Of a stretch of DNA of 64,000 nt, positions 10,689 to 63,673 are shown one piece after another. The notes below the pieces were generated by a model that searched no databases, had not been told where the DNA came from, and saw only the letters and a list, made by a program, of their open reading frames with translations. Positions within the stretch are counted from its first letter, which is position 1, and every line of letters begins with the position of its first letter. Made by a program: the position numbers and the translations under genes. Source of the DNA: Fimbriimonas ginsengisoli Gsoil 348 (lineage in GTDB: Bacteria; Armatimonadota; Fimbriimonadia; Fimbriimonadales; Fimbriimonadaceae); assembly GCF_000724625.1 (NCBI RefSeq), contig NZ_CP007139.1, forward strand, positions 1,736,001 through 1,800,000, written 5' to 3'.

Positions 10689-10903
10689 TCCTCAGGACTG
10701 AGAAGCGGTTCCACGATGTCCCCTACGATTTGAAATTGATCCCGGAACTGTCCCGGTTTGTAAGAAGCCTCACTAGCCGCCGGTGTGACTGTTGCGAACG
10801 GCTTTCCCCGCTTTGTGAGCTCTATCGGTTCACCAGTTTTTTTTGACTCCTCCAGAAGCCGGAGGCAGTGCGCCTTGAACTCCGTCACTGAAATCGTCTT
10901 CAT
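10661..10903 (-). CDS. Phd/YefM-family antitoxin of the VapC pair
   Basis: An 80-residue antitoxin. MKTISVTEFKAHCLRLLEE is the Phd/YefM DNA-binding N-terminus, and ELTKRGKPFATVTP is the conserved beta strand. The tail (VEPLLSPEEWGVEKEWF) is the toxin-binding part. The start is supported by TAAAAT exactly six bases upstream, a layout seen at many starts in this window. It lies head to head with a second Phd gene, 62 bases away, and shares palindromic operator-like sites with it. Confidence 0.85.
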   Translation of the reverse strand: MKTISVTEFKAHCLRLLEESKKTGEPIELTKRGKPFATVTPAASEASYKPGQFRDQFQIVGDIVEPLLSPEEWGVEKEWF

Positions 10904-10965
10904 ATGGTCATTTTACATGACTATTCGTCAGGGGCTGTAACATATGACCGGTCATACTGACTGGT
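10904..10965. promoter_or_regulatory. Shared operator/promoter region of two divergent antitoxin genes
   Basis: Two palindromes with the same half-site GTCAT/ATGAC lie between the starts. One is GTCAT-N5-ATGAC at 10907-10921. The other is the perfect 14-bp TATGACCGGTCATA at 10943-10956. The left-hand promoter (TAAAAT complement, 10910-10915) overlaps the first palindrome, and the right-hand one (CATACT, 10953-10958) overlaps the second. Phd-family antitoxins typically repress their own operon by binding such sites, so each protein may bind both. Confidence 0.7.
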
Positions 10966-11181
10966 ATGAGAACGATCACGGCAACCGAATTCAAAGCGAA
11001 GTGCCTGGAGATCTTGGATCACGTTCCTCAGGAGGGAATCAAGGTGACCAAGCGCGGCAAACCCGTGGCGCGGATCTACCCTGAGAACAACGGCATCATG
11101 GATCTTTGCGGATCGGCGCCGGGAATTTACGTAGGAGGCGACATCCTTAGCACGGGCGAGAAGTGGGATGCTGAATCTTGA
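10966..11181 (+). CDS. Second Phd-family antitoxin (toxin partner broken)
   Basis: A 71-residue antitoxin. MRTITATEFKAKCLEILDH and IKVTKRGKPVARIYP match the Phd/YefM fold and resemble the divergent neighbour. Its tail GGDILSTGEKWDAES is of the usual VapB toxin-binding type. CATACT lies seven bases before the start. The expected toxin gene overlaps its end at 11168 but stops after 36 codons, so this antitoxin now appears orphaned. It could still act as a repressor on the shared operators. Confidence 0.8.
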   Translation: MRTITATEFKAKCLEILDHVPQEGIKVTKRGKPVARIYPENNGIMDLCGSAPGIYVGGDILSTGEKWDAES

Positions 11182-11278
11182 TACGAACATTCTGACCGAC
11201 GCCGTGCACCGGCCGCCTTCGCTCACGCGGGATGCAAAGCCTAGAGCGTCCACCGTGGTTCCGCTTGCGCTACGGTAG
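11168..11278 (+). pseudogene. Truncated VapC toxin remnant
   Basis: An ATG at 11168 overlaps the antitoxin end by 14 bases, the usual VapBC arrangement. It opens with MLNLDTNILTDAV, matching the first strand of PIN toxins including the first catalytic Asp. After about 20 residues the similarity fades, and a TAG at 11276 ends the frame after 36 codons. The remaining acidic residues of a PIN domain are missing. I read it as a decayed toxin gene. Confidence 0.7.
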
Positions 11279-11328
11279 CAGTCTCCGCGGGCCAACAAGT
11301 CGCCGCTACGGACGGCTAAACTGCCTTC

Positions 11329-11724
11329 ATGGATGCTGCCGAACTGCTTCTCCGCCACCTTTCGCTCGTGGGACGGGCCGCTACCGCGGAGGAGTTGGAG
11401 ATCTATGCCGCCGACGTCGTGGCGGAATTCCCGTACGCGCCGGAGGATCACACGCGAAGGCTAGAAGGACCGGCAGCGATCGCTCAGTTCCTCGAGAACA
11501 TTGGGAAGTTCGCCGAAGGGTTCCGCCTCGGAGACCCGGCGATCCACCCCACCGCCGACGGCTGCATCGCGGAATACCATGGCGACGCGGTGTTCAAGTC
11601 CACCGGCCGCCCGTACTCGCAGGACTACATCTCGGTCATCCGAGTGGAGAGCGGTCGAATCGCCGGCATTCGCGAATACTACGATCCACTTAGAGTGTTG
11701 CGCGCGATGGGCGAGATTGATTAG
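11329..11724 (+). CDS. SnoaL/NTF2-like protein
   Basis: A 131-residue cone-shaped NTF2-like domain: an N-terminal helix pair (AAELLLRHLSLV and AEELEIYAADVVAEFPYAP), the GPAAIAQFLENI helix, then strands ending in YSQDYISVIRVESGRIAGIREYYDP. The closing R-x-Y-Y-D is typical of SnoaL-like polyketide cyclases and limonene-epoxide-hydrolase relatives. No substrate can be inferred. The start is well supported by TAAACT six bases upstream (11317-11322). Confidence 0.8.
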   Translation: MDAAELLLRHLSLVGRAATAEELEIYAADVVAEFPYAPEDHTRRLEGPAAIAQFLENIGKFAEGFRLGDPAIHPTADGCIAEYHGDAVFKSTGRPYSQDYISVIRVESGRIAGIREYYDPLRVLRAMGEID

Positions 11725-12043
11725 GCGACCATCACACGCTGATCGCTCAAGGTTGGAACGATTCTAATGTCCGACGAATCGAGGGCCATACCGACTCGCA
11801 AATTCCATAAGCATTGAAGGTCACTGGCTGCTCGCTCCACGCTTCTTTACTCGATGGAAGATCACGCCGTAGAAAGTGGGCAGCACTCCGAGACCGGCAA
11901 TATTCGACACTTCTGGATACTTTCTCACCTCCGCCATCGAACCCATTTTTGCAGATCCTTGATCGCCGGTTACGAAGCGCTCATCCGAATCTCAGCAAGA
12001 ATTTGCCTTGGGATAGCAATTGCGGTTTGTTATCATGGACTCG
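11725..12043. other. Gene-free stretch
   Basis: About 320 bases with no frame that I would defend as a gene on either strand and no strong repeat. The only landmark is the TATCAT hexamer at 12031-12036 that serves the next gene. Scattered short open frames here have no recognisable composition or motif. Confidence 0.5.
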
Positions 12044-12289
12044 ATGGCACAACACATCGAGGTGCAGGTGCTCGACCGACATGGGCAACCTGTCAATAAT
12101 GAGCGGGTCTCTATTTTCGCGACCCATATCGCCGCGACGGGCGGGATTCCGGATCAGTGGACCGATACCGCCGGGGTGGCCCGATTCGACTTGGAGATCG
12201 AGGCAACCGAAGAAGTCATTCTCTACGTGAAGGGACGCGAGCGAGTCCCCCGGGCCCCTCTCAAACCCCAGTACCGAGTCGTTACCTAG
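12044..12289 (+). CDS. Small beta-sandwich-like hypothetical protein
   Basis: An 81-residue protein starting MAQHIEVQVLDRHGQPV. The pattern VLDRHGQPVNNERVSIF followed by TDTAGVARFDLEI resembles a single carboxypeptidase-regulatory or Ig-like fold, as in proteins where D-x-x-G-x-x-V precedes a T-x-x-x-G-x-x-x-F strand. No signal peptide is visible. I chose ATG 12044 because TATCAT lies exactly seven bases before it; ATGs at 12020 and 12035 would place that hexamer inside the gene. Its stop interlocks with the VOC gene stop in CTAG. Confidence 0.6.
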   Translation: MAQHIEVQVLDRHGQPVNNERVSIFATHIAATGGIPDQWTDTAGVARFDLEIEATEEVILYVKGRERVPRAPLKPQYRVVT

Positions 12290-12690
12290 GCAGGATCGGG
12301 CGACCACCATTCGAGCAAATTGCCGTCCGGGTCATAGAAGTAGTACGACTTGGCGGACATCCACTCGAAATAAGTAGGGCCGTATACCGTCACGCCCCTC
12401 TCCCGCACGTGGGCGACCGCCTCCTCTAACCGGTCCCGGGTGACTTCGAAGGCGTAATGGAGCCGGCCAAAGCGCCCGCCTTCCGGTAGCGGCGAGTGCT
12501 CCTCGAAGAGCAGTTTGCCCCGCCGCAAGGCAACCCGCGGGGACGCTTCGGGAGGGCCGGACCAAAACCATGCCCAATCTTCGCTTGCTGGCGACATCGG
12601 GGTCAGGCCGACCACGTCTCTATAGAATGCCGCGGCTTTCGTCACATCGTCGACGATGAGGACGATTTCGGCGATGCCTTGGCTGAACAT
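12286..12690 (-). CDS. VOC-family (glyoxalase/bleomycin-resistance fold) protein
   Basis: A 134-residue protein with the vicinal-oxygen-chelate fold in two babbb halves: AEIVLIVDDVTKAAAFYRDVVGL at the front (18 residues of it diagnostic) and LHYAFEV...YFYDPDGNLLEWW at the end. His and Glu in the usual metal-ligand places (LHYAFEV and LLEW) are present. It could be a dioxygenase, an epimerase or a resistance protein. Only five bases separate it from the OstA-like gene upstream, so the two are probably co-transcribed. Confidence 0.8.
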   Translation of the reverse strand: MFSQGIAEIVLIVDDVTKAAAFYRDVVGLTPMSPASEDWAWFWSGPPEASPRVALRRGKLLFEEHSPLPEGGRFGRLHYAFEVTRDRLEEAVAHVRERGVTVYGPTYFEWMSAKSYYFYDPDGNLLEWWSPDPA

Positions 12691-12695
12691 GCAAG

Positions 12696-14162
12696 TTATC
12701 GGACTTTGCCGCCGCCGGTCTTCTTCGGGTCGCCGCCCCCGGTTTTGGGCGGGTCGACTTTCTTGGGCGGATCGGTCGGCGGCGGAGTCGTGCCGCCATC
12801 CTTGGTCTCGTCGTCGAAGGTGGTGAAGGTGCCGACGAACCCGGAGCCAGTGAACGAATCGTCGTCTTCGACGGTGGAGACCTCCATCCAGTCGGAGGAG
12901 ACGTTGTCACCCACGGAGTCCTTCATGCGAGTATCTTTCAGCGCCTTGGTGCTCACCATCTTGAGGAGCTCTTTCTCTCCGTCGTAGTAGGCCACGTTCG
13001 TCCAGAGGTGACGCCAGCGCCCTTCCGGCAGCTCTTGCCGACCCTGCGGCGAGCCGGTGATGACGGCGCGGCGGGCGCCCTTGCCGTACCAATACTCGAT
13101 CTTTGCCGAGACCATGACGGTGGGGAAGTCGCGAATCGTCTTGGTATCTCTAACCTGCTCGATCTGCTTCTTCTCGGCCTCGGTCGGCTTCTTCTTGGGT
13201 GGTTCGGGCTTCACCTGATCCGGGTTGAGCGGCTGGAAGGCGGGAAGCGGCTCGACCTTCGGTTTGCCGTCTTGATCCTTCTTCGGCTTGACGTACATCA
13301 ACACGTTGCCGATCATTTCGATCCGCTTCTCTTTCCGGTAGACCACGCATTGGTCGGCAACCAAGTCCGCTTTGGCCGAGAAATATTGGACTCTGCCGGT
13401 AGCGGTCAGCACGTCGGTCTTGCGGTCGTGGACGACTTTCGGAGCGATCAGGATCACCTCGTCGTCGGCCGCGATCGCATTGGTGTAGGTAGCGATTTGC
13501 TGGTTCTTGCCGGAATAGGAAATCGTCTGACCTTGAATCTCCCATGTCCTCGGCTTGCTCTGGTCCTCCTGCCCTTGGAGGTCCAACGCCAGCGCGCCTT
13601 TCCAATACACCGGCCCCGCCGTGAACGCCTCGGAATCGATACGGTAGTCGATATTCTTTGCCCGGATCGCGCCACCCTTGAGTTTTCCGCTCACGTCGCC
13701 CCGCACGAGCAGGGAGCTGACCAATCCGTTGTATTCGAACGCGTTTGAAGAAAGGTCGAGCTCTTTGTTGCGGACGCGCACGCCGCCATCCGCCTTTAGC
13801 TGCTTGAGGACGTCGATGAATTTGGCGTGGTGGGCGGTGTATTGAAAGGTCCCTTCTTTGCCGCGGTACACCGCGTCCCGGATTCCAGAAAGCTCGAACG
13901 TATGCCGGTCCGCGGCGAGATCCACGTGGTCGCATTTGGCGTAAGTGACGAGCCCGTTTTTGTCGAAGTGCTTGATCTGCACCCCCTGCATCCGCATCAT
14001 CGTGCCCGACTCCACGAAATCTTGGTTCTTGAGCGATCCGAGCGGGTCCGATCCGGCAAACTCGCGCATATACCGGACGGTGGCCGGGGTTACGGCGATC
14101 AGCCCCGCGAGCAAGATCAGGTTTCGGGCGAGCCGGAGATTGGGTGAGAGGGGACGTGCCAT
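12696..14162 (-). CDS. OstA/LptA-LptC-like envelope protein
   Basis: A 488-residue protein with a single N-terminal membrane anchor (LARNLILLAGLIAVTPATV). Repeated beta-strand pairs of the OstA/LptA jellyroll type follow: GVQIKHFDKNGLVTYAKCD, then DDEVILIAPKVVHDRKTDVL and GRVQYFSAKADLVADQCVV. The C-terminal 60 residues are a Pro/Gly/Lys-rich tail. LptC-like anchoring plus LptA-like repeats suggest a role in carrying lipopolysaccharide or another amphiphile to the outer membrane. It follows a methyltransferase gene by 95 bases. Confidence 0.7.
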   Translation of the reverse strand: MARPLSPNLRLARNLILLAGLIAVTPATVRYMREFAGSDPLGSLKNQDFVESGTMMRMQGVQIKHFDKNGLVTYAKCDHVDLAADRHTFELSGIRDAVYRGKEGTFQYTAHHAKFIDVLKQLKADGGVRVRNKELDLSSNAFEYNGLVSSLLVRGDVSGKLKGGAIRAKNIDYRIDSEAFTAGPVYWKGALALDLQGQEDQSKPRTWEIQGQTISYSGKNQQIATYTNAIAADDEVILIAPKVVHDRKTDVLTATGRVQYFSAKADLVADQCVVYRKEKRIEMIGNVLMYVKPKKDQDGKPKVEPLPAFQPLNPDQVKPEPPKKKPTEAEKKQIEQVRDTKTIRDFPTVMVSAKIEYWYGKGARRAVITGSPQGRQELPEGRWRHLWTNVAYYDGEKELLKMVSTKALKDTRMKDSVGDNVSSDWMEVSTVEDDDSFTGSGFVGTFTTFDDETKDGGTTPPPTDPPKKVDPPKTGGGDPKKTGGGKVR

Positions 14163-14257
14163 GGACTTCGTTTCTAGGAGGTTACTACGCCTAAGTTTGA
14201 TCCCTCACATCGAATCAACACCGTATCGAAAATCCTCGTTCCATTGGCACAGGCCGA

Positions 14258-14974
14258 CTACTTGCGCGCGGAGACTTGGCGTGAGGGGGTGACGAACAGA
14301 AAGTTCGGCCCCGAAAGCTGCACGTCTTGCATCCGGGCTTCCCGCAGAACGTCTGCGTAGAAGCCAACGGAACCGATGTCGACGATGAGCACTTTGCCCC
14401 CGGGCTTGAGAACTCGCACCGCTTCGAGCAGCGCCTGCCTGCGCTGTTCCTTCTGGGGCAGATTGTGGATGGCCCAACTCGATACCACGCAGTCGAAGCT
14501 GTCCGGTTCGAACGGCAGCTCGAGCATGTTGCCGGTGTGGAGCTCGACCCGTTCTTCCACCCGCTCGGCGCGGGCGTTGTACAGCGTCTCTTTGCGATCA
14601 TTTCCCGACTGGTCGACCTTACGCCACAGGTCCACCCCGACTGCGCGACCGCTTTTCAGCTTCTTCGCCACCCCGATGAGAAGCAGCCCGCGGCCGCAAC
14701 CGATGTCGAGCACCCGCTCGCTGCCGGTCAGTCCTAAGCTCTCCACGAGCCGGTCGCGCATCGCGATCTTGCCGAACCTGCTTCCTGACCACATCACCGC
14801 CGCCGTACCCGCCATCGAAATGCCGGCCCAGAGAAACGGCGCGAAGAAACCGCTCCGCGATCCTAGGAAGATAGCGAGTACGATCAGCACCCCGCCAATC
14901 GCCGCGAGGTTCCGCACAACCACGGGCGCGTCGATGCCGTAATTCGGTTTCATGGCAAATTGAGGACGCGTCAC
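14258..14974 (-). CDS. Membrane-anchored class I SAM methyltransferase
   Basis: A 238-residue protein. Two hydrophobic helices (LAAIGGVLIVLAIFLG and FFAPFLWAGISMAGTAAVM) precede a Rossmann methyltransferase domain with motif I VLDIGCGRGLLL, motif II acidic GVDLW, motif IV FDCVVSSWAIHNL and motif VI LKPGGKVLIVDIG. Small-molecule methylation at the membrane is likely; the substrate is unknown. The frame opens at GTG 14974, and an internal ATG at 14953 is possible. Confidence 0.82.
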   Translation of the reverse strand: MTRPQFAMKPNYGIDAPVVVRNLAAIGGVLIVLAIFLGSRSGFFAPFLWAGISMAGTAAVMWSGSRFGKIAMRDRLVESLGLTGSERVLDIGCGRGLLLIGVAKKLKSGRAVGVDLWRKVDQSGNDRKETLYNARAERVEERVELHTGNMLELPFEPDSFDCVVSSWAIHNLPQKEQRRQALLEAVRVLKPGGKVLIVDIGSVGFYADVLREARMQDVQLSGPNFLFVTPSRQVSARK

Positions 14975-15006
14975 CCCCGGCCATCGTTGCGCGTATCATG
15001 CCTCTG

Positions 15007-15816
15007 ATGGTTCGCCGAGCACTGGTCGAGAAGGCTCCCGAGGTAATCGAGGGGTTTCGCATGCGGGGCACCGAAGTGTCGCGGTTGGAAGCATTCGCCG
15101 ACTGCGTTTTCGGTTTCGGCATCACCCTGCTGGTCGTCAACATCGACACGCCGAAAGACTTCGCCCACCTGATGATCGCGATGCGCGGCTTGGTTGCGTT
15201 CGGTCTGTGCTTCGCCGTCTTTTACGGCGTTTGGTCTCGACACTACACCTACTGCCGCCGTTACGGTCTGGAAGACGCACCGGTGAGGTTCTTGACCGTC
15301 GTGATGCTCTTCGTTGTTTTGGCTTATCTGTACCCACTTCGCTTTCTAACCTTGGTGTTCGTAACCGGGGTGCTCGGGATCAAGAACGTGGGGTGGACTC
15401 CCGCCGTGGGGAACGACATCAATGCAAATTTGGGAAACCTTTTCATTGTCTATGGGGTGGGAGTTGCCGCGATACAACTGGTCTTCAGCGCTCTCTATGG
15501 GCACGCTTACCAGCAACGAGACAAGCTCAAGCTAGACGAGATCGAGATTCTCGATACTCGCTGGTGGACGCGTGAGCAACTGGCTTATCTGCTTATTCCC
15601 CTCCTCTCCATCTCCATCGTGGAATTTCTGCCGTACCGAATGATCGGCTTGGCAGGCTGGATTTATTTTGGAATGGGGTTCATCGGTTGGATCCATGGAT
15701 CGATGCACGGTAAGCGCCACCGCGCATTGGTCGAAAAAATGGAAGCCGAAGGTCGGCTCTCGGAAGACCAGTTGTCCACCGAAAACGACCTCGTCGAAGT
15801 ACCTCCCCCGGCGTAG
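15007..15816 (+). CDS. TMEM175-family (DUF1211) membrane protein, putative K+ channel
   Basis: A 269-residue integral membrane protein with about six helices. The first carries SRLEAFADCVFGFGITLLV, corresponding to the R-x3-F-S-D motif of TMEM175 channels with FSD changed to FAD. The family conducts potassium, so that is the likely role, though the altered Ser position may affect gating or selectivity. Its charged C-terminal tail is cytoplasmic. ATG 15007 is preferred over 14998 because TATCAT (14994-14999) is seven bases upstream. Confidence 0.75.
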   Translation: MVRRALVEKAPEVIEGFRMRGTEVSRLEAFADCVFGFGITLLVVNIDTPKDFAHLMIAMRGLVAFGLCFAVFYGVWSRHYTYCRRYGLEDAPVRFLTVVMLFVVLAYLYPLRFLTLVFVTGVLGIKNVGWTPAVGNDINANLGNLFIVYGVGVAAIQLVFSALYGHAYQQRDKLKLDEIEILDTRWWTREQLAYLLIPLLSISIVEFLPYRMIGLAGWIYFGMGFIGWIHGSMHGKRHRALVEKMEAEGRLSEDQLSTENDLVEVPPPA

Positions 15817-15835
15817 GGTCAGGTTCTTTGGGAGT

Positions 15836-15880: not shown

Positions 15881-15910
15881 CCACCGGCTAGGAGGCTACA
15901 TAGCGCTATC

Positions 15911-18250
15911 ATGAACCCAATGTTTCGTTTGCGGATTGCCCTTGCCGCTTTGGCTGCCGTTACGTGTGCCTACGGTCAGACTCGGCCTCACAACTTCGAC
16001 CTGCTCGACGTGCGGTGGTCGGTCTCGCTCGATGAACCGACTTCCTCACTCGTCGGCGACGTGACCAACACGCTTCGGCCGACCGCGGGAGCGGCGTCCA
16101 TCCAGCTCGACTTCGGCCGGCTCGAGGTCGACAGCGTGACCGTGGACGGCGTCGCCGCCACGTTCGACCACACCGCGCCGCTGCTCACGATTACCCTGCC
16201 AAAAGCCACGGATGGCGATAAGGCGATGGCGATTCGGGTCCGCTACCACGGCCAGCCGCAATCGGGCGCTTACTTCGTCCCCGCTTCCCGCGCTTTCCCC
16301 GCTCATACGCCGGTGGTTTATACGCAGGGTGAGATGGTCGACAACCGATTCTGGATCCCGACCTACGATTATCCGGACGACAAGGCGACGAGCGAAGGGA
16401 CGATCGACGTCCCCGAGGGTTGGTTCGCGCTAAGCAACGGCAAACTCGTCTCGAAAACCACCAAAAACGGGCGGACCGAGTTCCATTGGAAGATGGATAA
16501 GCCGCACGCGACGTATCTGATCTCCTTCTCGGCGGGTCCGTACGACGAGGGTGCGGGAAGCTGGGACGGCATCCCGATCAACTACTACGTTCCGCAGGGG
16601 TTGAAGGATCAGGGAGAGGCGGCGTTCGGTTTCACCCCCGATATAGTCCGCTTCTACTCCAAGCTCACCGGGTTCCGCTATCCGTACGCCAAGTACACGC
16701 AGTCCGCGGTGCCGGACTTCATGTTCGGCGGCATGGAGAACGTCACCTGCACCACGCAGACGATCAATGCGCTCCATCCGAAGTCGACGGAGCCGATCCA
16801 GGACACGCTCGGCCTCGTAGCGCACGAGCTTGCCCACCAGTGGTTCGGCGACACCGTCACCTGCAGTGGCTGGAGCGACGCTTGGATCAACGAGGGGTGG
16901 GCCACCTTCTTGCCGCCGTTCTACAACCGCGAAAAGCGGGGGATGGAGGAATTCGACCTTAACCGCTACGACATCTTTCAAGGCGGGCTCGCTGCCCACC
17001 GGTCGGCGCCGAATCGTCCCGTGGTTTGGAAGGGATACAAGGACGCTTTGGACATGTTCGACAACTTCATCTATCCGGGTGGGGCGTCGCGCATGTTCAT
17101 GCTAATGCACGAGGTTGGGGAGCCGGCGTTCTGGAAGGCGACGCAGGCGTACCTGGAGCAGAGAAAGTACACCTCGTTCGACACGCCCGCCTTCTTCGAC
17201 ACCTATTCCGCCAACCTCAAGCGGGATCTCCGGCCATTTATGCGCCAGTGGTTCTACACCGCAGGAGCTCCGAATCTGACCGTATCGATGGAAGGAACGG
17301 ATCTTGTGGTGACGCAAACGAAGCCGTACTTCACAGCCGACGTCGCGGTGTGGGTGCTGGAAGGGAACGAGTGGACGAAAAAGAAGATGTCGCTATCGGG
17401 CGAACGCTCCTATTTAGATCTCGGCGCGCAGGCGGGTCGTCCGGCATTGGTAGATCCCGAGTGTTGGCTAATGGCGAACATCACGAGCAAGCTGCCGATG
17501 ACCTCCGATGACATCGCGGCGGTCTTTAAGGCGGCCCCCAACGCGGGGGAGCAGGCGCGGATCATGGATACCATGCTTGGCTCGCTGACCAACGATCAGT
17601 TACTCGCGCTGGCCAAGACGATCCGAACTCCACAGGTACTTCGACGATTTATCGGATTGCTGAAGGATGGTTCACAGACGTTCCTCCTCGACCTCAGCCG
17701 CGGTCCCGATCGAAGCGTGGCGGATACGGCGGTCGACCATCTCGGCGCATTACCGTCTTCCCCAGCGGTGATCGCCCGGTTACACGAAATCGCCGATTCC
17801 GACCCAAACGAATCGCTACGGCAGAATGCGTTCAACGTTCTTCTGAGAATGACCAAGGACGCCTCGATGGCGGACCGGGCTTGGGCGATGGACGGATTCC
17901 GGGACCAGTACCGTCAGATCGCGCTGAATTGGTGGCGTCAGGTGAACCAGGCCACCGCGCGGGAGAAGGCGCTCGAAGCTCTGGAAAAGGGATATCCGGA
18001 GCCGACGCGACAGTTGGCGGTGAGCATCCTCGGCCAGCTCAAAGATAAACCCGGCGAGCACCGGGTGTACGACGCGCTCGCGTCGGTCCTAAAGGAGACA
18101 TCGTTCGGAGCCCGCAACAACGCGATCTCCGCGCTCGGCAGTTACGGCGACAAAGCCGCCATCCCACTCCTCGAGCCGTTCGAGAAAGCCGAGCTCGTCT
18201 TCTTCCGCCGAACCGCCGACGAGGCGCTGCGGAAGCTCAGGGCGAAGTAG
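15911..18250 (+). CDS. M1-family aminopeptidase with C-terminal HEAT-like repeats
   Basis: A 779-residue secreted peptidase. MFRLRIALAALAAVTCAYG is a signal peptide. The exopeptidase motif GGMEN is at 273-277. The zinc motif HELAHQWFGD is at 305-314, with the third ligand Glu at 328 (NEGWATF), so the gluzincin active site is complete. The last 200 residues form helical repeats as in ERAP-like enzymes. It removes N-terminal residues from peptides outside the cytoplasm. The open frame runs further upstream, but ATG 15911 is the one followed by a signal peptide. A composite repeat begins seven bases after its stop. Confidence 0.9.
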   Translation: MNPMFRLRIALAALAAVTCAYGQTRPHNFDLLDVRWSVSLDEPTSSLVGDVTNTLRPTAGAASIQLDFGRLEVDSVTVDGVAATFDHTAPLLTITLPKATDGDKAMAIRVRYHGQPQSGAYFVPASRAFPAHTPVVYTQGEMVDNRFWIPTYDYPDDKATSEGTIDVPEGWFALSNGKLVSKTTKNGRTEFHWKMDKPHATYLISFSAGPYDEGAGSWDGIPINYYVPQGLKDQGEAAFGFTPDIVRFYSKLTGFRYPYAKYTQSAVPDFMFGGMENVTCTTQTINALHPKSTEPIQDTLGLVAHELAHQWFGDTVTCSGWSDAWINEGWATFLPPFYNREKRGMEEFDLNRYDIFQGGLAAHRSAPNRPVVWKGYKDALDMFDNFIYPGGASRMFMLMHEVGEPAFWKATQAYLEQRKYTSFDTPAFFDTYSANLKRDLRPFMRQWFYTAGAPNLTVSMEGTDLVVTQTKPYFTADVAVWVLEGNEWTKKKMSLSGERSYLDLGAQAGRPALVDPECWLMANITSKLPMTSDDIAAVFKAAPNAGEQARIMDTMLGSLTNDQLLALAKTIRTPQVLRRFIGLLKDGSQTFLLDLSRGPDRSVADTAVDHLGALPSSPAVIARLHEIADSDPNESLRQNAFNVLLRMTKDASMADRAWAMDGFRDQYRQIALNWWRQVNQATAREKALEALEKGYPEPTRQLAVSILGQLKDKPGEHRVYDALASVLKETSFGARNNAISALGSYGDKAAIPLLEPFEKAELVFFRRTADEALRKLRAK

Positions 18251-21426: not shown

Positions 21427-21432
21427 TATAAT
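21427..21432 (+). promoter_or_regulatory. -10 box of the tRNA-Ser gene
   Basis: A perfect TATAAT lies 12 bases before the mature tRNA 5' end. Transcription would begin about 21438-21440, giving a very short leader. No clear -35 hexamer is visible at the matching distance. Confidence 0.7.
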
Positions 21433-21444
21433 GGTCGATGACGC

Positions 21445-21536
21445 GGAGAGATGGCTGAGTGGACGAAAGCGCCCGCCTGCTAAGTGGGTAGAGGTTGAAA
21501 AACTTCTCTCGGGTTCGAATCCCGATCTCTCCGCCA
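21445..21536 (+). tRNA. tRNA-Ser (anticodon GCU)
   Basis: A full cloverleaf of 92 bases. Acceptor GGAGAGA pairs with TCTCTCC. The anticodon stem CCCGC/GTGGG closes the loop CTGCTAA, giving anticodon GCU for AGC/AGU serine codons. There is a long type II variable arm (AGAGGTTGAAAAACTTCTC) and a T-arm with GGTTCGAATCC. Discriminator G and the CCA end are encoded. The lytic transglycosylase gene follows 25 bases later. Confidence 0.97.
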
Positions 21537-36922: not shown

Positions 36923-37588
36923 CTAAAGCGCCGGATCCTTCATCCCAAGGCTCTCAAACGCCTTGAGCCGAATCAGACAAGCGTCGCAATGTCCGCACGG
37001 ACGCCCGTCCGCGGGATCGTAGCAAGAGTGGGTCAGGGCATAGTCGACGCCTAGCTCCAAACCTCTCTGAATGATCTGGGGCTTCGTGAGCTGAATCAAC
37101 GGGGTTCGAATCTCGATCGGTCTTCCTTCGACCCCGGCTTTTGTGGCCAGCCGGGCGAGGGTTTGGAAGGCCGCGATGTATTCCGGCCGGCAGTCCGGAT
37201 ATCCCGAGTAGTCGACCGCGTTTACCCCCGCGTAAATTGCCTCCGCCCCAACGACTTCCGCATATCCGAGCGCCAGCGAGAGCATCACCGTGTTCCGAGC
37301 CGGAACGTACGTGACCGGAATATCGGTCATCTTCGACTCGTCGCGGTCCTTGGGCACCTCGATCGCGTCCGTCAGCGCCGACCCGCCGATCGCATCGAGC
37401 TCCACCCGAACGAACTTATGCTCCACCGCACCGAGTTGTGCCGCTACCCGCTTCGATGCCTCCACCTCTTCAAGGTGTCGCTGCCCGTAAAGAACCGTCA
37501 GCGCATACGGCTCCGTCCCGTCGCCGCGAGCGATAGCCAAACAAGTAGCCGAATCCAGCCCCCCGGACAGCAAAACGACGGAACGCAT
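36923..37588 (-). CDS. queC: 7-cyano-7-deazaguanine synthase (queuosine pathway)
   Basis: A 221-residue enzyme. [18 protein letters not shown] carries the PP-loop SGGLDS at 8-13. The zinc cluster is [16 protein letters not shown] near the end. QueC converts 7-carboxy-7-deazaguanine to preQ0 with ATP and ammonia, for tRNA queuosine or DNA deazaguanine modification. The start at 37588 is supported by TACTCT seven bases upstream. This start and its promoter form one arm of a large inverted repeat whose other arm carries the dppA start. Confidence 0.93.
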
Positions 37589-37777
37589 GAGGGAGAGAGT
37601 ACTTGGGGCTAGGCGTTGGGCGCTAGACACTAGGCGTTCGGGCGTTGGGCGCTAGGCGTTGGGCGTTGGGCACGTTCGAAAAGGCATACCTCTGTCAGTC
37701 GGACGGGCGCGGCACGCAAAGCGCCGTTTCCCAACGCCTAGCGCCCAACGCCTAGCCCCAAGTACCCTCTCCCCATG
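37586..37777. repeat. Inverted repeat spanning two start codons, with heptameric tandem repeats
   Basis: Arm 37586-37626 (CATGAGGGAGAGAGTACTTG onward) and arm 37738-37777 (ending AAGTACCCTCTCCCCATG) are near-perfect complements, about 38 of 40 positions. Each arm ends on the start codon of its neighbouring gene and includes that gene's TANNNT hexamer. Between them 37612-37672 is a tandem array of degenerate 7-base units (GGCGTTG, GGCGCTA, GACACTA, GGCGTTC). This whole intergenic region has no coding content. Confidence 0.9.
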
Positions 37778-40612: not shown

Positions 40613-40670
40613 TCCCGGCAACGGGGAACCATCATCGACCGAAATCCGCACGGCGGTGTATCGTTACGTC

Positions 40671-41114: not shown

Positions 41115-41136
41115 ATGCGAAAGGTATTCTCGTAGC

Positions 41137-55203: not shown

Positions 55204-55356
55204 GACCACATTATAGTAGACATTTGTGCGCTTGGATTGACCATTCTTTTGCGTCGCGGGTTTCAGCGATGCAGAAGCCCCGCACTGTGGGTGGGGCTAC
55301 AAATCGTCAAATAGTAGGTCAGGCCGCGCGCGGGAGGGAGGCTACATAGGCGGTCG

Positions 55357-57069: not shown

Positions 57070-57114
57070 AACGTCGGGGCGGACGTTCAGGGTACCTAAG
57101 CTAAAATGAGGAAC

Positions 57115-57624
57115 ATGGCGACCGGAACGTCTTCCATTGGGGTGATCGGCAAATGGCTGATCGTGCCGGTCCTAGTCGCTGCCCTCGGCTATTTTGTAAT
57201 TGCGCCGGCGATCCGGCATCAGCCTCCTCCAGCTACCGCTGCCCCAACTTCGATTCCCAATGCCGCGGAAACCTCGGGCCACGCGATCGCTAACCCCGAG
57301 GTCACCATCGAGCGAGGTCCTGCGGTGGCCACGCGAGGTCCGGAAGTCAGCATTTCCCAGACTCCTTACCGCCCCCACCATCACAAGAGAAAGAAGAAGC
57401 CCGATCCAAAACCGGCAGAGCCCCCAAAAACCGAAGTCCCCGCACCACCAGCCACCGAACCACCCGTCGACGGCGGCGGAAGCGGCGGCGCGGCAACGAC
57501 CGGGGGAGACGGGACGACCGGGACCGACGCCGGCGCCACGACGGGCGGAGCTACCGGTGGAGACACCGCCGGTTCGACTACCGGAGCAACCGGGGGAACA
57601 GACACGACCGGATTGAAGATATAG
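57115..57624 (+). CDS. Membrane-anchored low-complexity protein
   Basis: A 169-residue protein with one N-terminal membrane helix (LIVPVLVAALGYFVIAPAI). A Pro/Ala/Thr linker, a basic patch (PHHHKRKKKPDPKP), and a Gly/Thr tail (GDGTTGTDAGATTGGATGG) follow. The tail is likely disordered and outside the membrane. No function is recognisable. ATG 57115 fits TAAAAT seven bases upstream better than ATG 57106. The radical SAM gene follows seven bases later. Confidence 0.65.
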   Translation: MATGTSSIGVIGKWLIVPVLVAALGYFVIAPAIRHQPPPATAAPTSIPNAAETSGHAIANPEVTIERGPAVATRGPEVSISQTPYRPHHHKRKKKPDPKPAEPPKTEVPAPPATEPPVDGGGSGGAATTGGDGTTGTDAGATTGGATGGDTAGSTTGATGGTDTTGLKI

Positions 57625-57631
57625 TAGACGT

Positions 57632-58821: not shown

Positions 58822-59034
58822 CTAGAAGTTCCCTTCGAAGCGGGCCGAGATGTCGGAACCGATCAGCCGCTCTTCACCCGTCGCTTCGTTTTTAATGCGG
58901 TAACTCTTGGGACGCGCCGTCGGAGGATTGTCGTCCCGCAAGATGTTATGCCCTTCGGTATCGCCCATGACCGTCCAGATTTGACCGGTCGCTCGTTCGG
59001 TGATTTTCTTTCCCATCCTTGTCATAGTGGTCAT
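58822..59034 (-). CDS. Small hypothetical protein, about 70 residues
   Basis: The protein reads GKKITERATGQIWTVMGDTE at the front and SYRIKNEATGEERLIGSDIS near the end, with TG turns between strands. It is hydrophilic and beta-rich, and I recognise no family. ATGs at 59034, 59025 and 59016 are possible; AAGG directly before 59016 favours the last. It overlaps no other gene and is divergent from the receiver-like gene. Confidence 0.5.
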   Translation of the reverse strand: MTTMTRMGKKITERATGQIWTVMGDTEGHNILRDDNPPTARPKSYRIKNEATGEERLIGSDISARFEGNF

Positions 59035-59082
59035 TTGACGACGAACCGCAACCAGAAGGTCCATCCTTGCGTCGTTGCATCT

Positions 59083-59397
59083 ATGAAGGTGCTCGTTTGC
59101 CATCGAAACAAGGCCGTTCTGCACATGGCCCGGATCAACGCCGAAAAGCACGGGGTGGAGGTTACGGTGGCAAAGAACGGAAACGAGGTCCTGATGCTCG
59201 GGCGTATCAGCCGTCCCGATGTAATCGTGCTCGGCAATGATCTTGAAAAACCGTCAACCGACGAGACCGTAAAGATGTTGAAAGCAGAGCCGACGCTCCG
59301 CGGCGTCGAGGTCGTGATTACGAAGGGACTTCTTCCGGATCTATTCGGGACCAAGAAGCGTTTCCCGTTCCCGTGGAACAAGAGCGCGATCTCATAA
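59083..59397 (+). CDS. Degenerate (pseudo-)receiver-domain protein
   Basis: A 104-residue protein with receiver-like topology: MKVLVCHRNKAVLHMARINA, then GVEVTVAKNGNEVLMLGRIS, PDVIVLGNDLEKPS and GVEVVITKGLLPDLF. The acidic pair is replaced (VCHRN) and the phosphoacceptor position reads G-N in VLGND, so normal phosphorylation is unlikely. The switch Thr-Lys is partly kept. It may bind partners constitutively. An upstream ATG at 58948 is less likely because it would overlap the opposite gene. Confidence 0.65.
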   Translation: MKVLVCHRNKAVLHMARINAEKHGVEVTVAKNGNEVLMLGRISRPDVIVLGNDLEKPSTDETVKMLKAEPTLRGVEVVITKGLLPDLFGTKKRFPFPWNKSAIS

Positions 59398-59434
59398 ACG
59401 AAAAGATCCCAACAACCCTATGGGCGTTGGGATC
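59397..59434 (-). terminator. Rho-independent terminator for the small membrane protein gene
   Basis: GATCCCAAC (59405-59413) pairs with GTTGGGATC (59426-59434). Read on the minus strand the 9-bp stem is followed by TTTTCGTTT. It lies 20 bases past the stop of the minus-strand gene ending at 59454. It also sits directly after the receiver-like gene, but lacks a T-run in that direction. Confidence 0.7.
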
Positions 59435-59453
59435 ACCGAAGGGAGAGCGACGC

Positions 59454-59762
59454 CTATCGAGCTTGATAGGTGCTGGACCGTCCCATGCGGGCGTCCTCTT
59501 CCTCGAACTCCGTGTGCCACGGACTGGATTTGTCGGAGCGGAAATCGCGTCCCGACCATTCTGGGTGGCGCTGCAAGAAAATATGCTCGCGATGCACCAT
59601 AAGCGCTTTCTCAACTGCATCGAGTGGTGAAGTCTCCGGCGCCATTGTAAGATCGTCCGACGAATTTCGAGCGCCGAGGTAAGCGATCAATGCGATCGTC
59701 CCAACGCCTAGAATTGCGAAGATTATCAATGCAGAGACCACGACGGCCTGGGTAGGTTGCAT
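59454..59762 (-). CDS. Small single-helix membrane protein
   Basis: A 102-residue protein with one membrane helix (AVVVSALIIFAILGVGTIALIAYLG, residues 6-30, of which 20 are strongly hydrophobic) and a hydrophilic tail (HIFLQRHPEWSGRDFRSD, then EFEEEDARMG). No family is recognised. The start is supported by TAAGAT exactly seven bases upstream on the minus strand. A terminator hairpin follows the stop. Confidence 0.65.
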   Translation of the reverse strand: MQPTQAVVVSALIIFAILGVGTIALIAYLGARNSSDDLTMAPETSPLDAVEKALMVHREHIFLQRHPEWSGRDFRSDKSSPWHTEFEEEDARMGRSSTYQAR

Positions 59763-59859
59763 CCGCTTAATCTTACAAAAGGTTTGCTCTTATTCAAAGA
59801 CCCGTTTTTAGGGCTTTAGCCCCTGCAGGCTCAAGTGCATCCTTTGCCGTCGCCAAAAC

Positions 59860-59890
59860 AAGTAAATATGCTGGCGATGCATATTTACTT
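59860..59890. terminator. AT-rich perfect hairpin downstream of the ABC permease
   Basis: AAGTAAATATGC (59860-59871) and GCATATTTACTT (59879-59890) form a perfect 12-bp stem with a 7-base loop. The AT-rich island is unusual for this window. On the minus strand it follows the permease stop by about 43 bases and is trailed by TTGTTTTGGC, so a terminator is plausible. An operator-type role cannot be excluded. Confidence 0.5.
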
Positions 59891-59932
59891 AAATGTATTA
59901 GATATATCCTTAACTTCTTAGTTAAACGAGCC

Positions 59933-61459
59933 CTACCGCTCCCCCGGCAAAACGATCCCCCTCATGATCACCCTTTGAGCGAGGAGGAATACGATCAGCG
60001 TAGGCAAAGCCGCGAGCGTGAGAGCAGCCATCATCACCGACTTCGGCGCGTTGTTTTGAAGCTGATAGATCCAGACCATCAGGGTCCAAATCCTCTGATC
60101 CTGCGCCACCAGAAACGCGTAAATAAAGGCGCCGTATGCGCCCATGAACGCCACCAGAGCCAGGTAGCCGAGGACAGGACGGCTAAGCGGGAGGGCGATC
60201 CGGAACATCATCGTAGACTCCTTCGCCCCATCGAGCGAACCTGCCTCGAACAGCTCTTGAGGCAGTGAATCGAAGAACCCCTTCAAGAGGAAGATCATGT
60301 ATCCGCTCGCCGCCGACGGGAGCACTAGCGCGGCGAACGTGTTCAGAAGCCCGAGGTCCTTCAACAGCAAGAACGCCGGGATCATCGCGACCTCGGCCGG
60401 AAACGCCATCGTAGCGAGCAGAAAGATGAGGATCGCCCCCGACTGCCGGACCGGGTACCGGCTGAGAGCGTAGGCGGCGAGCGGATTCACCGTGAGCTGA
60501 GTCAGGATCGCCAACACACAGAAGAGCACCGTATTCGCCACCGCGCGGCCGTTGATCAGGATGTAATCCAACACGTACCGGTAATTGCGCCCGGCAAATT
60601 CGTTCCGGAGTTCGCTCGCGTGAGCGGCGACGTAAGCCGCTTCGTGAGGGGCGACCGGCATCGGACCGATTCCGCCGAAAGCGGCCCACTTAGCCTCTCC
60701 CGCATCGGATCGGAACCGGTCGGGCTCCTGCTTACGAAACTCGTCCAGTACCGGGCCGGAAGCCGGAACCTGAAGTTCTTCGAAGCGAGTGGCAGTCCCT
60801 TTCACGTCGAGCGGCACCTCGCCGAATTGGTTCTGGTACTTCCCCATCGCCCACTTCTGGAAAAGCAACCGTTCGGTAATCGGAATTCGAAAAGTCGTCG
60901 GCAGCCCTGCCTTAAAGCTTCTCCACTCCTCGTACTTGCGCCCGGGAGTAGGGCGCCAAACCTTTCGCGCGAACATCTCGCTGGGCGGGACCACGGTTTG
61001 GAAAGCGACGTTTTCCTCCACGTAGGCCCGGTTGAGAGCGTCGATATTCTCATATCGGCTCCGCAGCCACGTTCGATACAGATCGGTAAGCCGGCTCGTG
61101 ACCTGTCCCGGTGCGATCCGAAATCCAACTTCCCAAAAATCGATCGGGAGAGTTTTCAGAAAAGCGTCGTACTTCTCCACCTCCGCAGGGGAGCCGCCCT
61201 GGCGAGTTGAGGCGATCAGGCTTTTGTCGCCGGCGTATTTGTCGTCGACGTATTTATCCAGGAGCTCGGCATCTTTTTGAAGATAGGTCGGCACGAGGCG
61301 GGTGTCGTTCTGATCCGTCGGCCCCTTGAGGCCGGTGCTGATCATAAGCAGAAACGGATAGATCGTCGTGATCGCGCCAAGCGTAAGGATCAGGTACAGC
61401 CCCGCCATCGCCACCCGCGCCCGCGGGCGCTTCCGCCCCACCCGCCCGACGAGACTCAT
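59933..61459 (-). CDS. ABC sugar-permease (MalG-like) with very large first loop
   Basis: A 508-residue permease, against about 280 for the family. Helix 1 is LYLILTLGAITTIYPFLLM. Some 260 hydrophilic residues follow (about 40-300) before the usual permease core, which has the EAA motif EAGSLDGAKESTMMFRIALP. The insert includes YRTWLRSRYENIDALNRAY, a pattern resembling segments of family 42 glycosidases. No binding protein, partner permease or ATPase is adjacent. TATCCT lies seven bases before the start, in the region shared with the divergent AraC gene. Confidence 0.85.
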   Translation of the reverse strand: MSLVGRVGRKRPRARVAMAGLYLILTLGAITTIYPFLLMISTGLKGPTDQNDTRLVPTYLQKDAELLDKYVDDKYAGDKSLIASTRQGGSPAEVEKYDAFLKTLPIDFWEVGFRIAPGQVTSRLTDLYRTWLRSRYENIDALNRAYVEENVAFQTVVPPSEMFARKVWRPTPGRKYEEWRSFKAGLPTTFRIPITERLLFQKWAMGKYQNQFGEVPLDVKGTATRFEELQVPASGPVLDEFRKQEPDRFRSDAGEAKWAAFGGIGPMPVAPHEAAYVAAHASELRNEFAGRNYRYVLDYILINGRAVANTVLFCVLAILTQLTVNPLAAYALSRYPVRQSGAILIFLLATMAFPAEVAMIPAFLLLKDLGLLNTFAALVLPSAASGYMIFLLKGFFDSLPQELFEAGSLDGAKESTMMFRIALPLSRPVLGYLALVAFMGAYGAFIYAFLVAQDQRIWTLMVWIYQLQNNAPKSVMMAALTLAALPTLIVFLLAQRVIMRGIVLPGER

Positions 61460-61482
61460 GGTTTATAGGATAGCCGGTTAAT
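61460..61482. promoter_or_regulatory. Compact divergent promoter between permease and AraC regulator
   Basis: Only 23 bases separate the two starts. The segment TATAGGATA (61464-61472) contains, on the minus strand, TATCCT seven bases from the permease ATG. On the plus strand TAGGAT lies 11 bases from GTG 61483. The two -10 elements therefore overlap almost completely, so polymerase can serve only one direction at a time. Confidence 0.6.
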
Positions 61483-62418
61483 GTGGCGGGCTCTGATCCT
61501 AAAGAGGTACATCAAGGCTTGGTAGAGATGGCACGCGACTGGATTGCGCGACTCAATACGGAGCTTGGCCGCCTTGCCATTGGCGGCGGGCGGCTCGATT
61601 TGTTGCATTGGGCGTACGATGAGCACCTTCGGGACAACCAGCCGCATCGCCACACTCACTTCGAAGCTTGCCTAGTCGGCGCCCACGGATCCGGCACCTT
61701 TACCGCGTTGGGCACGGATCACCGGCTGACCCCCGGCACATTCTTCCTGGCCCGCCCGGGAGTCGTCCACCAGATTCGGAACGATGGCCCGGAGCTGATG
61801 GAGCTGGTCTGGGTCTCCTTCGCTTGGAGCGACGATGGAGGTACGCCGCGAACGCCCGGGGAGCGGCTGATGCGCAACTTCGCCGCCTCCGATGCGATCG
61901 TCGCGATGGACGATGGCCGCATCCGCTCCCTCTGGGATGCGCTTCGAGCCGTGGCACCGACCGCGTTGCCGGAACAGGTTCGCGCCCTCGTTCAAACGCT
62001 GGTCTTGGAGATGGCCCAAGCGTTGGCGCCGGACTCGGTCCCCGCCGAGCGCCCGGACCCACACGCCCGCATCGCTCAGCAGGCGGTGCGTTATATCGAA
62101 GACAACCTATACCGTCCGCTCGCGGTAGACGAAATCGCAAATTACGTCCATGTTTCGCCGCGTCACCTTGGACGATTATTCGCCGCCTTCACCGGAACTT
62201 CGCCCACTCGATACATGATGCTTGCCCGGCTGGATCGTGCAAGCGCGCTGCTGCAGCGGGGCGACCTTCCGATCAAGGAGATCGCCGACAGCCTCGGATT
62301 CAGCGACTCCGCCTACTTCACCCGGTGCTTTACTCGCCGATACGGAGTGGCCCCGGCCGCATTTCGTCGTGGAGAAGGCGAGGTCCGAATCGTCCAGTCT
62401 CCCGGCGGGTTGGTCTAA
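61483..62418 (+). CDS. AraC-family regulator with cupin-type sensor
   Basis: A 311-residue regulator. The N-terminal cupin (RHTHFEACLVGAHGSG, LTPGTFFLARPGVVHQI) would bind a sugar-like ligand. The C-terminal AraC domain has VDEIANYVHVSPRHLGRLF and IKEIADSLGFSDSAYFTRCF. By position it is the likely regulator of the divergent ABC permease. Start options are GTG 61483 and ATG 61528; neither has a clear ribosome binding site. Confidence 0.88.
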   Translation: MAGSDPKEVHQGLVEMARDWIARLNTELGRLAIGGGRLDLLHWAYDEHLRDNQPHRHTHFEACLVGAHGSGTFTALGTDHRLTPGTFFLARPGVVHQIRNDGPELMELVWVSFAWSDDGGTPRTPGERLMRNFAASDAIVAMDDGRIRSLWDALRAVAPTALPEQVRALVQTLVLEMAQALAPDSVPAERPDPHARIAQQAVRYIEDNLYRPLAVDEIANYVHVSPRHLGRLFAAFTGTSPTRYMMLARLDRASALLQRGDLPIKEIADSLGFSDSAYFTRCFTRRYGVAPAAFRRGEGEVRIVQSPGGLV

Positions 62419-62452
62419 GGAGAACGGCTCTCCGCTCCGCTACCCTTTCGGC

Positions 62453-63223
62453 ATGGTTCGTCCCGAATATGTCGATCAATACCGAGAGATGGGATATGTG
62501 CAGGTTCCCAGCCTTATCAGTGCAGACGAAGCGGCCGCCCTCCGCCAAGACATGCACGATCTGGCCGAGCGGCTGAGCCGCCGCGAGCACTTAGATGCGA
62601 CATGGGGATCGGCCCGCGCCGCCGTGGCGGAAGCCAAGGAAACCCGCATCCTGCACTGCCATAACGTCCAGTTCTACTCCGCGCTGGCCACCCGCCTCAT
62701 GTGCGACCCGCGGATAACCGACCACGCGGCGGCGTTTATGGGAAGCGAGAACGTTCAGCTTCATCACTCCAAGATGTTCATCAAGCCGCCCGAGAAAGGG
62801 TCTCCGTTCCCGATGCATCAGGACGCGCCGTTCTTTCCCCACGACCGGCATACGATGATGGCGGTGATCGTCCACTTCGACGACGCTCCGCTCGAAAAGG
62901 GATGTCTACGGGTAGTCCCCGGCTCACACAAGAACGGGATACTCGAGCACGACGGCGACGGCTCCTGGCACCTGCCGTTCGACCGATATCCGATCGAGGA
63001 TGCGGTACCGATTCCCGCCAAGGCTGGAGACGCGATCTTCTTTAGCTACCTCACGATCCATGGCTCGGGGATCAACGTTTCCGACGAAGCCCGGACCACG
63101 ATGCTTATCCAGATGCGCGACCCCAGCGATCCCCCCACGATCGTCACCCACCGCTCCCGAGGGCAGGGGATGATGCTGCGCGGAGTCGATCCGAACCCGG
63201 TATCCCAGTTCGAGGGAATGTAG
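62453..63223 (+). CDS. PhyH-type Fe(II)/2-oxoglutarate oxygenase
   Basis: A 256-residue phytanoyl-CoA dioxygenase-like protein. PFPMHQDAPFFPHDRHT gives the H-x-D of the iron site and FSYLTIHGSGINVS the distal His. RTTMLIQMRDP provides the Arg that usually binds 2-oxoglutarate. The substrate is unknown; the placement after a sugar-type regulator is compatible with hydroxylation of a small metabolite. TACCCT lies six bases before the ATG. Its TAG stop lies inside a repeat hairpin. Confidence 0.88.
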   Translation: MVRPEYVDQYREMGYVQVPSLISADEAAALRQDMHDLAERLSRREHLDATWGSARAAVAEAKETRILHCHNVQFYSALATRLMCDPRITDHAAAFMGSENVQLHHSKMFIKPPEKGSPFPMHQDAPFFPHDRHTMMAVIVHFDDAPLEKGCLRVVPGSHKNGILEHDGDGSWHLPFDRYPIEDAVPIPAKAGDAIFFSYLTIHGSGINVSDEARTTMLIQMRDPSDPPTIVTHRSRGQGMMLRGVDPNPVSQFEGM

Positions 63224-63250
63224 CATTGGCGGCAATCGCCGATGCTACAT
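63218..63250. repeat. GTAGCATTGGC hairpin joining two genes
   Basis: ATGTAGCATTGGCG and TCGCCGATGCTACAT pair with one or two mismatches. The left arm contains the PhyH stop (63221-63223). The right end contributes TACATT (63246-63251), five bases before the next GTG start, so one short repeat supplies both a stop codon and a putative -10 element. Confidence 0.8.
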
Positions 63251-63256
63251 TGAAGA

Positions 63257-63673
63257 GTGACCCGCGCCGAGCTGACCGATCTGCTGGACCTCGGCGCCAC
63301 CGGTAAGACCGTCCTCGTCGTCGAGGACCACGTTCCGTGGCTCACCCTTCTCGCTCACTTTTGGACAGAGGCAGGCCACAAAACGTTGGCCCTTACCGGC
63401 ATCGACGAAGTTCACGGAGACCTCGCCTTTGGAAGAACCGTCGACGGGACCGAGATGATCGACATCCGCACTGTCGACGTCGCGTTTCTCGATCACTACT
63501 TCCTCAGCACCCGTTACAACGGCGCCTTGCTTACCCGTGAGCTGTTGCTGCGCAAGCCGATAAGAATCTGCGGCATGTCGTCCGACGCCGCCGCCAACGC
63601 CGCCATGCGCCGGGAGGGGGCCATCGCCGCCTTTCGAAAGTCCGACCTGATGAGAATGATCGCCACCCCGTAG
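63257..63673 (+). CDS. Single-domain response regulator-like protein
   Basis: A 138-residue receiver domain. TVLVVEDHVPWLTLLAHFW has the acidic pair, VDVAFLDHYFLSTRYNG the phosphoacceptor Asp, IRICGMSSDA the switch Ser and AAFRKSD the Lys. A loop of about 15 residues (DLAFGRTVDGTEMIDIRT) before strand 3 is longer than usual. No output domain or kinase is adjacent. The start is GTG with TACATT five bases upstream, and the stop TAG lies in a repeat. Confidence 0.78.
   Translation: MTRAELTDLLDLGATGKTVLVVEDHVPWLTLLAHFWTEAGHKTLALTGIDEVHGDLAFGRTVDGTEMIDIRTVDVAFLDHYFLSTRYNGALLTRELLLRKPIRICGMSSDAAANAAMRREGAIAAFRKSDLMRMIATP

Follow-up and report, generated by a model that had tools for sequence, protein, structure and literature searches.

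The sequence examined here is a stretch of 64,000 nucleotides (nt) from Fimbriimonas ginsengisoli Gsoil 348 (positions 1736001-1800000 of contig NZ_CP007139.1), referred to below as the window. The element in question is the hexamer TANNNT, a putative promoter -10 box that stands 5-7 bases ahead of a number of start codons. The genome (G000:C1) consists of a single contig of 5,231,762 bases, 99.96% complete, and the window has a GC content of 59-63% by 4-kb blocks. A preliminary description of this DNA had listed 15 such sites. All 15 hexamers were confirmed at their positions and every spacer, defined as the number of bases between the hexamer and the start codon, was read back exactly: the spacer is 5 at one site, 6 at eight sites and 7 at six sites.

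Because starts must not be chosen by the motif, we used a start caller that is blind to upstream sequence and relies on a coding score and start-codon priors only. The caller is simple: its gene yield is below expectation, short genes are missed, and start errors dilute all rates given below. The own-genome sample comprised the window and 40 stretches of 20 kb (L001-L020 and L049-L068), 864 kb in all, in which 655 genes were called, 637 of them with 80 bases upstream. Of these 637 starts, 45 belong to the window and 592 to the 800 kb outside it.

Within the window the caller found 46 genes, nine of which have TANNNT at a spacer of 5-7. Eight of these nine starts had been listed before; the ninth, at 15920 on the plus strand (TANNNT at 15907..15912, spacer 7), had not. 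On the plus strand, the putative -10 boxes at starts called blind are TAAACT (11317..11322, spacer 6) ahead of ATG 11329, the start of a SnoaL-like protein; TACCCT (37763..37768, spacer 6) ahead of ATG 37775 of an M55 D-aminopeptidase; TATCGT (40659..40664, spacer 6) ahead of ATG 40671 of an AraC-type helix-turn-helix protein; TATTCT (41125..41130, spacer 6) ahead of GTG 41137 of priA; TACCCT (62441..62446, spacer 6) ahead of ATG 62453 of a PhyH family gene; and TACATT (63246..63251, spacer 5) ahead of GTG 63257. On the minus strand they are TACTCT (37596..37601, spacer 7) ahead of ATG 37588 of queC, and TATCCT (61467..61472, spacer 7) ahead of ATG 61459 of an ABC transporter permease.

The other seven listed sites were not recovered blind. 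Two lie in genes that were called at a different start, both on the plus strand. At the TMEM175-like gene the putative box TATCAT (14994..14999) is followed after 7 bases by ATG 15007, and the blind call is a rival ATG at 14998 that overlaps the box. At the gene of a radical SAM protein the putative box TATAGT (57620..57625) is followed after 6 bases by ATG 57632, and the blind call is 57656; protein-aligned homologues (see below) favour 57632, and they are compatible with the starts at 37588 and 41137. The five start corrections claimed in the preliminary description are for the most part candidates. The remaining five sites precede open reading frames (ORFs) that were not called at all. Three are putative -10 boxes on the minus strand: TAAAAT (10910..10915, spacer 6) ahead of ATG 10903 of a short ORF of the Phd/YefM antitoxin family (PF02604), TATAAT (55210..55215, spacer 6) ahead of GTG 55203 of an ORF with a LigD 3'-phosphoesterase domain, and TAAGAT (59770..59775, spacer 7) ahead of ATG 59762 of a 102-amino-acid ORF with no Pfam match. 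The last two, on the plus strand, are doubtful: TATCAT (12031..12036, spacer 7) precedes ATG 12044 of an 81-amino-acid ORF with a weak, sub-cut-off Ig-like match, where both gene and site are in question, and TAAAAT (57102..57107, spacer 7) precedes ATG 57115 of a low-complexity ORF with no Pfam match, with GAGG between box and ATG.

The preliminary description gave 15 boxes among about 60 genes. This excess is real, and the rate is too high, because the starts had been picked with the motif in view; the blind count in the window is the nine of 46 given above. When the window share of the genome sample (9/45) is set against the 2.7% found in control registers, P is about 3e-6. The enrichment of the window over the rest of the sample (69/592) is not significant (P = 0.10). 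Among all codons in the window, coding or not, TANNNT accompanies 19 of 1435 ATG, 19 of 1655 GTG and 15 of 1608 TTG triplets. The description had also stated that no Shine-Dalgarno (SD) sequence accompanies the box. By a four-letter test (GGAG, GAGG, AGGA or AAGG at -20 to -4) this holds for 13 of the 15 sites and fails for 41137 (AAGG) and 57115 (GAGG).

A genome-wide positional peak had been proposed as the check on these boxes, and the peak was found at a spacer of 6-7 not only in the genome sample but also among homologues and pooled relatives. Outside the window, TANNNT stood at a spacer of 5-7 ahead of 69 of the 592 blind starts (11.7%, against 2.7% in control registers), with 10, 35, 24 and 10 cases at spacers 5, 6, 7 and 8; at a rate of 2.7% such a count has P of about 8e-24. 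For the whole sample the figure was 78/637 (12.2% against 2.7%), and the counts at spacers 4 to 12 were 5, 11, 40, 27, 10, 17, 12, 13 and 12, over a background from spacer 18 on that averages 5.74 per position. Two further controls were applied to this count. Fifty-eight decoy hexamers made by permuting the letters gave a mean of 23.5 and a maximum of 47, compared with 78 for TANNNT (of 645 starts), and the same TANNNT hexamer at spacers 17-28 gave 16.8 per three registers. When all starts scoring up to 3 units below the best were admitted, the count rose to 108/648 (46.1 for decoys, 33.5 for TANNNT at other places), and with a limit of 6 units it rose to 123/652 (61.0 for decoys, 49.8 for TANNNT at other places). 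By either control, the net share of starts with a box is about 8-12%.

In a de novo scan of gapped words of three to four bases, TANNCT at spacer 6 ranked first (27 against 1.2) and GTANNNT at spacer 6 second (26 against 1.5); in the list of 45 words the first SD-like word, ANNGAG, appeared near the end. An in-frame TAA or TAG stop ahead of the start could in principle produce such a signal, and this was rejected, as the forms that contain no stop, TAC and TAT, keep the peak: 22 at spacer 6 and 15 at spacer 7, compared with 2.9.

The same peak was seen at starts that had been placed by aligning proteins, without regard to the box. Three proteins, namely PriA, QueC and the radical SAM protein, had family matches in 41, 38 and 18 of 41 genomes, and 30, 30 and 19 of their loci were examined; for the D-aminopeptidase we used 28 loci from named genomes (Fimbriimonadia, Chthonomonas-type and other Armatimonadetes, with one titled 'bacterium'). 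With the own copies excluded, the 100 homologues had TANNNT at spacer 6 in 25 cases, at spacer 7 in 10 and at spacer 5 in none, over a background of 0.89 per position at 15-59, where it should be kept in mind that the four genes were chosen for the box in their window copy and that relatives are non-independent. When any nearby in-frame start was allowed and the own copy counted, the box was present at 5-7 in 12/30 PriA, 10/30 QueC and 12/18 radical SAM genes.

Aligning the 78 gene sites on the hexamer showed that the motif is more specific than had been described. TANNNT stands as its core, and the bases favoured around and within it are G at -1 (41 sites), G at -2 (38 sites) and C at the fifth place (47 sites). 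A box of the same kind was found at transfer RNA genes, for example TATAAT (21427..21432, plus strand) 12 nt ahead of the untranslated tRNA-Ser gene at 21445. Among 46 distinct regions upstream of tRNA genes, some of which lie inside tRNA clusters, TANNNT was present at 3-22 nt in 32 and at 50-69 nt in six. A box at 5-20 nt was present in 31 regions; 23 of these have G at -1, and 23 have G at -2. For the most part, the boxes at tRNA genes are 10-12 nt away from the mature 5' end. The GG-TA-N3-T element is thus apparently used also where no start codon follows. Of the tests made, this one discriminates best between a promoter and a translation signal. Since the same GG-preceded box stands at untranslated tRNA genes, it behaves as a promoter -10 element, and it looks like the -10 element of the organism's housekeeping-type promoters.

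No -35 element was detected ahead of these boxes. TTG at a spacing of 16-18 from the 78 gene boxes was found in three, the same number as off-register; in this leaderless-type set the TTG, TTGA and TTGAC forms gave nothing, and none of the top 15 words of an open word scan fell at that place. At the tRNA promoters CTTGAC could be seen by eye about 17 bases ahead of several boxes, and the counts there fail to outdo the off-register control (TTG 4/31 against 4/31; TTGA 3 against 1), so that no -35 element is claimed for them. The difference between tRNA promoters (4/31) and leaderless-type genes (3/78) in TTG at 16-18 has P = 0.10. In intergenic DNA, slightly more TTG was counted at spacing 17 (35) than at the remaining 15 spacings between 10 and 25 (12-32), and TTGAC at spacing 17 shows no excess (1 against 0-3).

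Taken as a whole, it is very probable that these boxes are promoters of the housekeeping type that consist of a -10 element only, abut the start codon and would give leaderless mRNAs at about 8-12% of genes net. The housekeeping sigma factor would read the box, RNA polymerase would start at the purine of the start codon (on the first base of the ATG or GTG, or within one or two bases of it), and ribosomes would bind straight to the start codon at the 5' end of the leaderless message. The leaderless-type promoter reading of the preliminary description is thereby supported, and its mechanism is very probably right, given the peak at 6-7, the tRNA boxes, the purine start codons and the lower frequency of the box behind close same-strand neighbours. 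The missing -35 element and the scarcity of Shine-Dalgarno words at box genes (8/78, compared with 17/78 in a control stretch) count in its favour too.

The sample was grouped by start codon: the box was present at 58/483 ATG and 20/89 GTG starts (78/572 together) and at 0/65 TTG starts (TTG against the rest, P = 2e-4). Pooling the own set with those of the named Fimbriimonadia and of G012, a genome from another family of the phylum, gave 0/111 for TTG and 142/1002 for the others; in the sets outside this pool, TTG starts with a box numbered 0/7 in G065, 0/5 in G066, 1/6 in Deinococcus deserti and 1/7 in Escherichia coli. The lack of the box at TTG fits with leaderless transcription, because a purine would be preferred as the first base of a start codon on which the transcript itself begins. 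Box use is also higher at genes that are divergent or well separated than at those that closely follow a gene on the same strand. The box was observed at 50/372 genes whose neighbour is divergent or lies over 100 nt off, compared with 8/139 of those within 25 nt behind a same-strand neighbour (P = 0.018); for genes 26-100 nt behind a neighbour, the count outside the window was 12/80.

A number of observations weigh against leaderless -10-only promoters. There is a shoulder at spacers 8-12 (10, 17, 12, 13 and 12 of 637, against 5.7), which suggests some short leaders of a few bases or some miscalled starts. With looser start choice, TTG cases with a box in the own set rise to 3 and then 7, and the background also rises. 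The close same-strand genes are still above the control (8 of 139, against 2.2). The tRNA box differs somewhat from that at genes, with T at the third place in 17/31 compared with 20/78, and C at the fifth in 13/31 compared with 47/78. The box is missing in most of the PriA (18/30) and QueC (20/30) homologues examined, and it therefore turns over. Lastly, two genomes of the same family show nothing (G065, 1/64) or little (G066, 3/55), in 100 kb each.

The alternative that survives best accepts the boxes as promoters and holds that most messages begin with a leader only a few bases long. Such near-leaderless messages are favoured by the shoulder at spacers 8-12. Exact start sites are predicted here from sequence, which leaves room for them too, and the 10-12 nt distance at tRNA genes is silent on the exact start. 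Against it stands the sharp rise in the whole sample from 11 cases with spacer 5 to 40 cases with spacer 6, as would be expected if transcription began on the first base of ATG or GTG; the absence of the box at TTG starts is predicted in the same way. We regard short leaders at most of these genes as possible and rather unlikely.

A second alternative is that TANNNT acts at the RNA level as a translation signal, e.g. as a contact for the ribosome or for S1, and not as a promoter. The fixed spacing to the start codon would suit such a signal, as would the above-control count at close-neighbour genes. SD words are, moreover, depleted where the box occurs, with SD four-mers at 8/78 box genes compared with 17/78 in a control stretch, the other 559 genes having 167 compared with 109. 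However, the same GG-preceded box at 32 of 46 untranslated tRNA regions is not explained by a translation signal, nor are the TTG starts that lack it or its lower frequency in likely operons (P = 0.018 as above). The translation-signal reading was rejected on the tRNA-gene boxes and is very improbable. The weakest alternative, that chance or start-picking (including in-frame TAA and TAG stops ahead of starts) produced the signal, has in its favour that the earlier reader knew the motif when choosing starts and that five of the 15 listed ORFs were uncalled blind, and it is refuted for the signal as a whole, at almost no remaining probability, by the outside-window P value and by the peak that persists against decoys, in the TAC/TAT-only forms and at protein-anchored homologue starts, while it may hold at single sites such as 12044 and 57115.

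The use of SD sequences in F. ginsengisoli is weak. SD words were found at 27.5% of starts, compared with 19.1% in controls, whereas E. coli gave 52.9% against 12.7% in the same pipeline. The 16S ribosomal RNA locus L151, one of two, has the 3' end GGATCACCTCCTT, so an anti-SD sequence is present; a script did not find the GGATCACCTCCTT motif on the strand read of the second 16S locus. A published table gives SD-bearing mRNAs as 25% in Fimbriimonadia and 70% in Chthonomonadetes (PMC10783764). The net SD share here, about 8%, is similar to the net box share of about 9.5%, where start errors dilute both. Most called starts in the own sample have neither the box nor an SD word above background.

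To judge the breadth of the signal, the same pipeline was applied to other sequences. The named Fimbriimonadia loci pooled gave 41/332, with 28 of these at spacer 6, and G012 (L158-L167) gave 23/144 called starts. As a positive control, a D. deserti plasmid gave 9/101, five of them at spacer 6; as a negative control, E. coli gave 4/153 with no peak. We also compared TANNNT-6-ATG with the same arrangement at spacer 18 in 61 whole genomes of the phylum, our own included. The spacer-18 control was used because a control read backwards differs in coding phase. This survey counts ATGs anywhere and has a single control spacer, and several genomes have ratios under 1, the lowest being 0.80; ratios of 1.1-1.2 therefore mean little. 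The seven genomes of the family of F. ginsengisoli gave 1.17 to 1.78; six of them exceeded the control by over 4 standard deviations and the seventh, G035, by 1.8 standard deviations. G012 was the strongest of the 61, with 999 cases at spacer 6 and 517 at spacer 18 (ratio 1.93), and two others of its family gave 1.25 (G060) and 1.07 (G036). The other 51 genomes lay at 0.80-1.20, two of one family (G025 and G045) being above 3 standard deviations. As judged from these counts, the box signal is patchy across the phylum.

The -10-motif genes of Deinococcus-Thermus (Zhong 2025, PMC12340547) resemble those described here, with TANNNT about 6-7 bp ahead of the ORF. Their commonest box is TACACT, and C is favoured at the fifth place here; most -10-motif genes of Deinococcus radiodurans have no classical -35 element, as is the case in the leaderless-type set; and SD genes coexist with -10-motif genes in both. 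In D. radiodurans the -10 box alone sufficed in reporter tests. The share, in contrast, is nearly one third in D. radiodurans compared with 8-12% net here, in another phylum. GG is favoured ahead of the box in F. ginsengisoli, unlike in Deinococcus-Thermus, and its promoter function is predicted from sequence. The same article holds a domain-wide bacterial scan as a supplementary figure, and its main text makes no mention of Armatimonadota.

The TA-led genes of Actinobacteria and other bacteria (Zheng 2011, PMC3160421) are also similar, having TAnnnT about 10 bp upstream at a minority of genes in high-GC genomes, although their share of about 20% in Actinobacteria exceeds that found here. That study reported leaderless genes in 207/953 bacterial genomes, chiefly Actinobacteria and Deinococcus-Thermus; its phylum list leaves Armatimonadetes unnamed and includes one unclassified genome. 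Mycobacterium tuberculosis reportedly combines TANNNT -10 boxes with leaderless mRNAs (PMC3898074); transcription start sites were mapped there, whereas the present data are sequences. According to PMC9581028, leaderless transcription is a GeneMarkS-2 prediction for 21.6% of bacterial species, and F. ginsengisoli may be among them. A study of 260 prokaryotes (PMC5397173) does not mention Armatimonadetes in its passages. Searching the open-licence literature by title and passages, we found no report of leaderless transcription in Armatimonadota, the domain-wide survey figure and the GeneMarkS-2 lists lying outside the scope of this search.

The leaderless mode is thus one known from other bacteria, to which Armatimonadota would probably add a lineage. 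On balance we favour the broader view that Fimbriimonadia are a further deep lineage, distinct from Actinobacteria and Deinococcota, with leaderless -10-only expression on a genome scale, about as common as recognizable SD initiation, which would have been gained or lost patchily within the phylum (with a strong signal in the own family and in one genome from a second family, and a signal close to background in most of the rest). If so, relatives with and without the mode could be compared directly, and a phylum with the box in some families and without it in most of those sampled would allow the gain and loss of leaderless initiation to be tested. Tools that seek SD sequences would be likely to misplace many gene starts in this lineage, and promoters would be recognizable in the sequence by the -10 box alone.

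The 30 or so bases that precede queC (minus strand) and those that precede the D-aminopeptidase gene (plus strand) are near-identical inverted copies, box included (37589-37680 and 37731-37774). A 28-base pattern from these copies occurs at two places in the genome at up to three mismatches, and the stretch is rich in short repeats of the GTTGGGC/GCTAGGCG type.

The Phd/YefM antitoxin-family gene with the leaderless-type box occupies 10661-10903. Elsewhere in the genome (L178) a second ORF, Phd-like by eye, has TACTAT six bases ahead of an in-frame ATG. The sequence TATAGTAGAC, at 55212-55221 and 57620-57629, overlaps the putative -10 boxes of the LigD 3'-phosphoesterase gene and of the radical SAM (spore photoproduct lyase-like) gene. 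It has four copies genome-wide, two of them in the window; of the others, one lies ahead of an ORF resembling a Phd-type antitoxin by eye and one has no ORF start within about 170 nt. Several radical SAM homologues (L133, L140, L142 and L145) have words like TAGTAGAC or GTCTACTAG upstream. TATAGTAGAC is possibly an operator shared by DNA-repair genes.

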